From contig NC_015562.1 in NCBI RefSeq assembly GCF_000214415.1, positions 1 to 64,000 on the forward strand: a stretch of DNA of 64,000 nt, given 5' to 3'. The stretch is from Methanotorris igneus Kol 5 (lineage in GTDB: Archaea; AGJL01; Methanococci; Methanococcales; Methanococcaceae). The notes under the pieces are model-generated. The model had not been told where the DNA came from, ran no database searches, and was given only the letters and a program-made list of their open reading frames with translations. Shown here piece after piece: positions 50,324 to 52,596 of the stretch. Position 1 is the stretch's first letter, and each line of letters opens with the position of its first letter. The translations under genes and the position numbers were made by a program.

Positions 50324-50590
50324 TATAGTCGTTCTACAAAATACGGCACTATTTACAATTTCGAACCGAAGGTTCGAGCAGTGTCCACTGCAACCTATGG
50401 TTGCAGGGAAGTTGAATAACGTAGTTATTCAACTAAATCTTTGATTTCGCCTAATCGAACCGTAAGGTTCGAGCAGCGAAAACTCCGCAGGAGTTTTCGC
50501 CTAATAAAATTTCAATTTTGAGTAAGTTTAACAAAACTCCAATTTAAATTAGAGTTATGTTAACTGTCATTTAATTGTAGAACGACTATA
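50324..50590. mobile_element. Composite TATAGT-family MITE (TTCTACAAA subfamily)
   Basis: Termini TATAGTCGTTCTACAAA and TTGTAGAACGACTATA, 267 bp. The right 100 nt match the compact element at 52262-52382 (ATTTAAATTAGAGTTATG, GTCATTTAATTG). The left part holds additional hairpins: GAACCGAAGGTTC, CTGCAACCTATGGTTGCAG, GTTGAATAACGTAG and AAACTCCGCAGGAGTTTT. Confidence 0.75.
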
Positions 50591-50646: not shown

Positions 50647-50679
50647 GGATGCACCTCCCAAAATGGGTTCGGTGCATCC
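50647..50679 (-). promoter_or_regulatory. Archaeal SECIS element in the selD 3'UTR
   Basis: Read on the minus strand: a 9-bp stem GGATGCACC / GGTGCATCC, then the unpaired GAA on the 5' side and a single A on the 3' side, then a 3-bp CCC/GGG stem and an ATTTT loop. This is the archaeal SECIS architecture (GAA..A internal loop above a long stem and below a short GC stem). It lies 57 nt after the selD stop codon, where archaeal SECIS elements are found. Confidence 0.92.
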
Positions 50680-50719
50680 TCCCATGTGTCATTCTCTGCT
50701 TTAATTATTTTTATTCTTT

Positions 50720-50741
50720 AACTTCCCAGCACCGATTTAGA
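50720..50741 (+). repeat. 22-bp inverted repeat, copy at the selD stop codon
   Basis: The plus-strand sequence AACTTCCCAGCACCGATTTA plus GA is the exact reverse complement of 51704-51725. On the selD message this segment spans the UAA stop codon. Confidence 0.97.
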
Positions 50742-51783
50742 TCTCAACAATTTCGGGGTTCTTTAAGCATGCTTTTCCTTCTCTGTCCTTTGCTATAACT
50801 TTACCAACCTCAAACGCATAGCATCCATTTTTTGTTAGTTCATCAATGAGTTCCTCCTTATATTCCTCTTTTACTGAAATTAGTAGTCCTCCTGCCGTTT
50901 CTGCTCCACAACCTTCCAATAATGGATGGCCAAACATTCTGCTAAGCTCTGGTGTTTTTTTGATTGTTGGAAGTTTATTTATCTCAATTATAACCCTGCT
51001 GTTCCTTGCAACTTCATTTGCATGCCCCAAAATACCAAAGCCAGTGATGTCTGTTAAAGCATTTGCAATCTTTTCCCCCACCTTCTTCTCAGCATTTCTT
51101 AAAGATACCAGAGCAGTTCTGTTTGATGTTGTCATTAGTTCTATTGCCTTGTTTATGATGTATTCTTCTTCCTCCTCACTTACACCGAGCATGTCCTTGA
51201 ATTCCTTTGGAACCCTTGATAATGCCATTGCCGTTTGTGTACCTAATGGTTTTGTTAATATTAATGTGTCTCCCACTTTTGCCCCTGCATTTGTTAAAAC
51301 ATCCTCTTCTCTCCCTACACCAGTCACTGCCCCTCCTATTAATGGCCATGGATTCATTATTGTGTGCCCACCGATTATTGAAGTGTCATTTTCCCTGCAA
51401 AAGTCCTGAAATCCTCTTAGCATTTCTTTTGCAGCATCTATTGGTAAATTCTCTGGAATTCCTAAAATTACCAAAACACCAACAATATCTAAAAGTCCCA
51501 TTGCGTAGATGTCGCTTGTTGAATTGCACGCTGCTATTTTTCCCTGCAGATAGGGGTCATCAACGATTGGTGTAAAGACATCAACGGTCTTTGCTATAAC
51601 TAAGCCGTTCCTTTTAACCACTGCTGCGTCATCACCCAAGCCGACAATGATATCTTTTGATTTTGTTATCTCTTCATTGCTTACTATTCCTTTTACAAGG
51701 TTTTCTAAATCGGTGCTGGGAAGTTTGCATGCTCAACCATGAAGTTTTACCATCTCAGTTAATCTTACTTTTTTCTCTTCCAT
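50737..51783 (-). CDS. selD: Selenophosphate synthetase with selenocysteine (in-frame UGA)
   Basis: Selenide, water dikinase of 348 residues, which makes selenophosphate for selenocysteine. A normal reading stops at TGA 51733-51735, but the frame continues upstream as MEEKKVRLTEMVKLHG-U-ACKLPSTDLE, the conserved SelD active-site region with Sec in place of Cys at residue 17. The start is ATG 51783 with GGTGG upstream. Later motifs are VGLGDDAAVV, IAACNSTSDIYAMGLLDI, SIIGGHTIMNPWP and ALTDITGFGILGHANE. A SECIS follows in the 3'UTR. A prediction that ignores UGA recoding would start at 51639 and lose the N terminus. Confidence 0.95.
51704..51725 (-). repeat. 22-bp inverted repeat, copy just after the selD Sec codon
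   Basis: On the selD message this segment starts 8 nt after the UGA and encodes part of KLPSTDLE. It is perfectly complementary to 50720-50741. Mismatches on both sides (A opposite A) limit the pairing to exactly 22 bp. Confidence 0.97.
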
Positions 51784-51892: not shown

Positions 51893-52071
51893 TATAGTCG
51901 TGTGCGAAATATATTACGGCAAAACCTTTAGGTTTTGCCATTAATTTTTTAACTTATTTGTGCATTAATGAATTTTAAATAATCATTATCCTTCATTAAA
52001 ATTTAGGATGGTTATATAATCCTTAAAAATTTATCGACAGCATATCCCAAACTCTAACGCACACGACTATA
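51893..52071. mobile_element. TATAGT-family MITE
   Basis: Termini TATAGTCGTGTGCGAAATA and CTAACGCACACGACTATA, 179 bp, with a GGCAAAACC...GGTTTTGCC hairpin. Part of the gene-free region between selD and the aminotransferase gene (51784-52596). Confidence 0.85.
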
Positions 52072-52261
52072 AGTTTGAAGGCAACTATAATAAATATATA
52101 TGTTTTTGTGCATTAAAATGATAACCAATTTTGTGAAATTCCATAAAAAGTTTTAATGATTTTTAAGTTATAATATTAAGTATAATATATTGTTTATTAA
52201 AAATTTGGATTGTATATAACTGTAGGTTTTCATTGCTCAAAACCTTTGATTTTGATTCCAT

Positions 52262-52382
52262 TATAGTCGTTCTACAAAATACAGCATCGCCCAATCTCAA
52301 AATTTCAATTTTAGGTAATTCAACAAAATTTTAATTTAAATTAGAGTTATGCTAACTGTCATTTAATTGTAGAACGACTATA
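52262..52382. mobile_element. TATAGT-family MITE, compact intact copy (TTCTACAAA subfamily)
   Basis: Termini TATAGTCGTTCTACAAA and TTGTAGAACGACTATA, 121 bp, no internal hairpin cluster. It serves as the uninterrupted reference for the nested element at 25719-25987 and for the right part of 50324-50590. A further solitary right terminus (GCAAACGACTATA) ends near 52514. Confidence 0.85.
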
Positions 52383-52596
52383 CTCACCTTGCTTCACTCA
52401 GCGATAATAAAATTTTGAAGTTAGGTTGTGATAAATTTTTTAAATAAGCACAATTTTTCCTTTAATTTTAATTAAGTTTTAAGTTTTTAACAATATATAA
52501 TGCAAACGACTATACTTTTTAGGAATACTATAAATAATCGTTAAATATCGTTAGATAATCGTTTATTTGTAATTTTATTATTTATAGGTGATAGGC

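Follow-up and report, generated by a model that had tools for sequence, protein, structure and literature searches.

The window analysed here (64,000 nt, positions 1 to 64,000 of contig NC_015562.1) derives from Methanotorris igneus Kol 5, whose assembly consists of a single contig of 1,854,197 bp. On its reverse strand it carries selD, a selenoprotein gene in its own right, whose message combines a Sec UGA close to the start of the reading frame, a SECIS beyond the stop codon, and two mutually complementary stretches that lie next to one and the other. The features are, in window coordinates:

50737..51783, reverse strand: selD, selenophosphate synthetase (a selenoprotein), 348 aa, Sec near codon 17, TAA included
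51733..51735, reverse strand: Sec UGA, read from the sequence (51735-51733 in message order)
51704..51725, reverse strand: 5' arm of the putative helix (UGA+8 to UGA+29), encoding KLPSTDLE
50720..50741, reverse strand: 3' arm of the putative helix, spanning the stop codon of M. igneus selD and covarying with the 5' arm
50737..50739, reverse strand: TAA stop of selD, read from the sequence and lying within the 3' arm in M. igneus
50680..50719, reverse strand: linker of 40 nt that joins the 3' arm to the SECIS
50647..50679, reverse strand: SECIS, found by motif search (9-bp basal stem, GAA/A kink-turn-like bulge, GC-rich apical stem)

The assignment to selD is based on a frame with a single in-frame UGA inside the conserved motif HG-U-ACKLP; TGA occupies the same motif position in all 35 selD loci that were read, and the homologues within Methanococcales show identities of 66-89%. 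The SECIS stem (GGATGCACC-GAA-CCCATTTTGGG-A-GGTGCATCC, 50679-50647) starts 57 nt past the stop, exactly where the first-pass annotation of this DNA had put it, and fulfils the eaSECIS criteria (GGATGCACC GAA CCC..GGG A GGTGCATCC, 3' UTR), so that it can be regarded as a standard member of this class, to which the helix is an extra element located outside the SECIS. A strict SECIS pattern matches three sites in the entire M. igneus genome, the one of selD among them, while an Rfam search of the sequence returned nothing relevant. In three of the other loci (L012, L024 and L030) the bulge of the selD SECIS apparently reads AAA or CAA in place of GAA; according to the accessible part of Peiter et al. 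2025 (RNA Biol, PMC11881835), such bulge variants are functional, if weaker, in reporters.

The surroundings of selD also contain repeated elements. The octamer CGACTATA is found in 20 copies between 13450 and 61003 of the window (0.4 expected), often in facing pairs, with five copies upstream of selD (51893-52514) and two downstream (50324-50590); it looks like a repeated intergenic element or a promoter-associated motif. Furthermore, a palindromic hairpin, GAAAAC(C/T)CCGCAGGAGTTTTC, has four copies (21023, 49507, 50478 and 55679; one with one mismatch) where none is expected, and two of them flank the gene just downstream of selD.

The two arms (51725-51704 and 50741-50720) pair at 22/22 positions and are separated by 962 nt, which agrees with the perfect complementarity, and with all the coordinates, given by the first-pass annotation. 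Its further statement that a chance match is negligible was borne out on several levels, the recurrence in relatives (below) included: within the 64-kb window only the two arms themselves match the 22-mer with at most 3 mismatches, while 0.01 matches are expected by chance. When the contiguous helix between the 130 nt preceding the SECIS and the 32-nt stretch following a given codon was scored, the true UGA of selD reached 54, as compared to a maximum of 20.5 at 288 other selD codons. For 144 ORFs of the same genomes, taken as controls and scored for their best helix against the stop-proximal region, the median was 24.5 and the 95% quantile 29.5, and the score of M. igneus selD was exceeded a single time, by an hdrA selenoprotein gene that the filter had missed. 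With the three hdrA selenoprotein genes of the control set (L162, L171 and L167) discounted, the best genuine non-selenoprotein control stands at 41.5, versus 44-54 for selD of the hyperthermophile group (in other selenoprotein genes the scores go up to 66 for fwdB and 71.5 for hdrA). This top-scoring control is a vhuA pairing in L160 (a sister species of M. igneus), in which, on the reverse strand, a 19-bp complementarity links the vhuA coding sequence with the stretch just before vhuU (from 849 nt upstream to 122 nt downstream of the vhuA stop).

In partition-function folding of the naked whole message (ribosomes and proteins were left out), the selD helix was predicted with a mean pair probability of 0.97, 0.95 and 0.77 at 37, 65 and 85 °C, respectively, and the helices of fwdB, the second fwdB-like gene and hdrA (see below) with 0.91-0.99 at all three temperatures. 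As the 5' arm begins just past the UGA and the 3' arm ends just before the SECIS, pairing would loop out the coding region of ~1 kb. This would bring the UGA and the SECIS together at one end of the helix, leaving 7 + 40 = 47 unpaired nt between them in place of the ~1,050 nt that separate them in the unpaired message. The earlier suggestion that the SECIS is brought within a few tens of nucleotides of the codon it serves thus holds by helix geometry, with formation of the helix in the cell being inferred.

The alignment of related selD loci that the first-pass annotation had proposed was carried out on Methanococcales genomes and a few outside this order (the genus labels of the relatives being inferred from kinship and from the literature), and revealed a pairing that is both conserved and compensatory. 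When the best helix between message segments separated by 200 nt or more was sought without bias, 15 of 15 selD loci (13 of Methanocaldococcus type and 2 of Methanotorris) yielded one and the same pair of sites as their best long-range helix. Within this group the helix measures 17-22 bp, the 5' arm begins at UGA+7 to UGA+11, and the 3' arm, always 5' of the SECIS, is located within stop-2 to stop+44 and in several species spans the stop codon. In 10 selD loci of two sister genera, the 5' arm (UGA+10..+22) pairs over 10-13 bp with codons inside the gene (stop-52..-37, mostly the block encoding GVGK/GIGK), and the SECIS mostly starts 2-16 nt past the stop. The distance from 3' arm to SECIS is kept at 41-52 nt in 8 of these 10 loci (86 nt in L024 and L027; the SECIS position of L024 was assumed for this count), which indicates that the 3' arm tracks the SECIS and not the stop codon. 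The helices of the sister genera score 25-35 and could not be set apart by score alone; the support for them, drawn from sequence comparison, is their common position and their covariation. No helix was detected in the selD loci of mesophilic Methanococcus (7/7), nor in those of L066 (probably Methanopyrus), L035 (Bathyarchaeota) and L067.

Covariation was assessed over a core of 13 pairs in 25 selD sequences. In register, 95.9% of the cells of this core can pair, as compared to 33-49% when the partner is slid by 1-3 columns, and two-sided changes affect 6 of the 13 pairs (22 cells); the covariation score amounts to 0.380, against 0.162 +/- 0.024 after shuffling, and was not reached in any of 500 shuffles. 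When the 15 loci with the arm in the 3' UTR are considered alone, 7 of 20 pairs (23 cells) carry two-sided changes. At the Leu wobble position, UGA+12, the loci carry U, G or C, and the base facing it from ~1 kb away changes in step to A, C or G; the within-gene arm of the sister genera itself covaries (ACC/GGU, GCC/GGC, and AAU/AUU with V to I). Mapping onto a tree inferred from the remainder of selD showed that, for almost all core columns, a change in the 5' arm has its counterpart in the 3' arm, those at UGA+12, +17, +18 and +19 being equally frequent in both arms; the event at UGA+17 divides groups of loci that use different 3'-arm sites, and should therefore be read as a relocation and not as a simple double change. 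Codon choice follows the presence of the helix: the Pro of the 5' arm is encoded by CCC in all 25 helix-bearing selD genes and by CCA in all 7 helix-free genes of Methanococcus, although only 3.7% of Pro codons in one helix-bearing group and 9.7% in the other are CCC. The helix would explain the use of rare codons around Sec codons.

The SECIS and Sec codons were also located in further genes of 14 genomes, and the layout seen in selD recurs in several of them, with helices whose sequences are unrelated. In hdrA, UGA+26..+64 pairs over 20-29 bp with the stretch preceding the SECIS, 1.46-1.57 kb away; in fwdB the helix lies at UGA+22..+49 (14-26 bp), in a second fwdB-like gene it comprises 17-19 bp, and in vhuD it follows the second UGA (UGA+46..+61, 15-16 bp), no good partner being found for the first UGA in the Methanocaldococcus loci tested. 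For hesB a helix occurs only in some cases (two genes, 14-15 bp). M. igneus by itself harbours helices in selD (22 bp), fwdB (25), hdrA (25), the fwdB-like gene (17) and vhuD (15), and the same method recovered the published helix of fdhA1, including that of M. igneus fdhA (16 bp, SECIS in the 5' UTR). Across 47 genes, the median distance between UGA and SECIS decreases from 1,027 nt (raw) to 45 nt (effective, range 20-102). The only geometric trait common to all these genes is that the helix starts less than ~50 nt past the UGA and usually ends less than ~45 nt before the SECIS. There is no helix in vhuU, in which just 66-78 nt separate the SECIS from the UGA to begin with.

A helix was likewise missing from hdrA in four genomes and from fwdB in two, and in these genes a search for a SECIS up to 200 nt from the stop came out empty; partners in the 5' UTR were likewise sought for them and not found. 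In L163, L164, L166 and L167, hdrA has no SECIS or helix of its own detectable close to the stop, and the next SECIS follows vhuD, ~490-570 nt past the hdrA stop, so that hdrA and vhuD may share one SECIS. With regard to pairing on the far side of the SECIS (the two-sided design of fdhA1), a partner for selD was sought and not consistently found. In hdrA of L159, UGGCCCCUA and UGGGGGCUA make up a short candidate pairing; in L159 and L160 the post-SECIS UGGGGGCUA can also pair with UGA+5..+13, and both flanks may serve to fix the hdrA SECIS of these genomes in place, in the manner reported for fdhA1. In fwdB, an additional short helix next to the UGA (CACGGGC/GCCCGTG) was noticed in L159, L160 and L169; it is absent from the Methanocaldococcus sequences and is for this reason not claimed.

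Taken together, these comparisons make a pairing at the RNA level that is under selection well supported, and we hold it likely that the inverted repeat of selD is a long-range helix of the mRNA which repositions the 3'-UTR SECIS beside the Sec UGA. The long-range fold suggested by the first-pass annotation is, on the evidence of the sequences, supported, and extends to other selenoprotein mRNAs. In such an arrangement, a factor bound to the SECIS, together with SelB and Sec-tRNA, would be delivered to the ribosome standing at the UGA; the ribosome that reads through would melt the 5' arm, and the pairing could be restored for its successor. What has been computed is the potential to pair, together with its conservation and covariation, the constant placement of the arms relative to UGA and SECIS, the recurrence across genes and the absence where the SECIS is near; the formation of the helix in cells and an increased recoding of the UGA are inferred, there being no probing data. 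By inference too, the benefit for recoding may be greatest at high temperature. On a broader scale, and with a confidence slightly below that for selD, we think it probable that most mRNAs with a distant SECIS in thermophilic Methanococcales make use of a gene-specific helix (giving UGA-SECIS distances of ~25-80 nt), and that proximity has been selected for recoding in the heat.

Downstream structures placed a few nucleotides beyond the codon being read are known to act on paused ribosomes (as stimulators of frameshifting and readthrough), and the selD helix, starting 7-11 nt past the UGA, has the spacing at which they are effective. It could be argued that the helix is merely a roadblock which slows the ribosome and disfavours termination, comparable to the SRE stem-loop of the selenoprotein N mRNA, the closeness of the SECIS being a by-product. 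We view this as improbable, given that such an effect needs a constant short spacing, which selD has and the other genes do not, their helices starting at UGA+21 to UGA+46, too distant from the UGA. Moreover, a local hairpin would suffice for this purpose, without any need of a 3' strand located 1-1.5 kb away beside the SECIS, and in the sister genera this strand shifts with the SECIS.

The pairing might also serve the stability of the mRNA, or a feedback on selD, rather than recoding, for instance by protecting the message or by exposing it to a double-strand-specific RNase, an exposure that would depend on the number of ribosomes passing the UGA. That the 3' arm covers the stop codon in several species fits with such a role, as does the approximately three-fold reduction of reporter mRNA by complementary flanks (PMC11881835, accessible part). 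We nonetheless give it little credence, as a layout that is found in hdrA, fwdB, vhuD and fdhA and is absent from vhuU points to the geometry between UGA and SECIS and not to the regulation of selD.

A third possibility, that the repeat arose at the DNA level (by template switch or inverted duplication) and that its arms have been kept alike by gene conversion without any function of the RNA, could draw on the fact that the changes in the selD core are all two-sided and devoid of G-U intermediates; strong Watson-Crick pairs are, however, expected anyway at 65-90 °C, and G-U pairs are present in the helices of fwdB and vhuD. It would also require that at least five unrelated genes each acquired an inverted copy of their post-UGA sequence beside the SECIS, whereas the partner in the 10 sister-genus loci is a resident functional codon block and not a copy, and it conflicts with a rare-codon fixation that tracks the helix, so that we judge it very improbable. 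The first-pass annotation had listed a template switch, an invertible segment and an assembly artefact as alternatives, all of which are rejected on the grounds of independent genomes, covariation and the relocated 3' arm within the coding sequence of the sister genera. An artefact or a chance match, for which nothing in favour was found, can practically be dismissed, as the helix recurs in 25 selD loci from separate assemblies (some of them complete chromosomes) and the hyperthermophile-group selD scores exceed those of all non-selenoprotein controls.

The closest precedent for the repositioning helix is fdhA1, a single gene with its SECIS in the 5' UTR, for which 'SECIS repositioning' was proposed by Peiter et al. 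2025: in the accessible part of this work, SECIS flanks of 7 and 10 nt are described as complementary to the ORF, which would place the SECIS 43 nt past the UGA, and their pairing as conserved in Methanococcales and longer with growth temperature (PMC11881835). A trend of this type is also seen in selD, from 17-22 bp in Methanocaldococcus/Methanotorris through 10-13 bp in the sister genera to none in Methanococcus. As far as the available portion of the same paper goes, adding the flanks to a 5'-UTR SECIS did not significantly change raw reporter activity while mRNA fell ~three-fold, which translates into ~two-fold activity per mRNA; in this portion such flanks are attributed to no gene other than fdhA, and genes with a 3'-UTR SECIS go unmentioned in this respect. 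Like fdhA1, selD pairs a flank of its SECIS (over 22 bp) with the ORF tens of nucleotides 3' of the UGA. Unlike fdhA1, in which both flanks pair, its SECIS lies in the 3' UTR and the main helix uses the 5' flank only; the helices of 3'-UTR genes, moreover, loop out the whole coding region, reach up to 29 bp and occur in at least four further gene families. Given the 3'-UTR SECIS and the lack of a consistent post-SECIS pairing, we consider the selD helix a variant of the fdhA1 type and not a member of it.

A second parallel is offered by the PRTE-DRTE interaction of tombusviruses (Cimino et al. 2011, PMC3234231), in which a long-range pairing is needed for readthrough, as established with compensatory mutants. 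In both cases the sequence just 3' of a recoded stop pairs with a distant element (3'-terminal and kilobases away in the virus), but the viral system consists of a 6-nt pairing in the bulge of a stem-loop of a viral genome, with no SECIS or SelB, and the pairing of selD is backed by natural compensatory changes, with its bearing on readthrough inferred. The SRE (e.g. that of the selenoprotein N mRNA) is a local stem-loop a few nucleotides 3' of the Sec UGA that stimulates recoding. The selD structure resembles it in position; it does not meet the SRE criterion, its partner strand being located 962 nt downstream, beside the SECIS. The minimal SECIS, as published, does not comprise a helix of this kind and works without it in reporters of M. 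maripaludis (PMC9622424; accessible part of PMC11881835). No other report of such helices was encountered in the open-access literature (subscription papers were outside the search), and a term search of a 2026 review turned up no mention of SECIS repositioning. A principle known from a single gene (fdhA1) therefore appears to be a common architecture of messages with a 3'-UTR SECIS in thermophilic Methanococcales.

In reporters of the mesophile M. maripaludis, a SECIS in the 3' UTR remains functional at distances of 520-679 nt from the UGA, and no distance constraint was found (PMC9622424, in which the group behind PMC11881835 had earlier argued that the UGA-SECIS distance is unconstrained). 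As no pairing is known there, the helix is not strictly needed in this organism. A selected proximity of UGA and SECIS, if true, would contrast with the prevailing opinion that in archaea, as in eukaryotes, any distance is tolerated, and we suggest that the apparent freedom from a distance limit observed in a mesophile does not extend to thermophiles. From a practical point of view, a UGA-proximal stretch that is complementary to the flank of a SECIS constitutes a strong new signal for finding and validating archaeal selenoprotein genes. It is not settled how, in archaea, a SECIS in an untranslated region signals to a ribosome paused at a faraway UGA, no SECIS-binding factor being known for them (as stated in the accessible part of PMC11881835), and the helix would represent a physical solution that is encoded in the sequence and used, with independent sequences, by several gene families.
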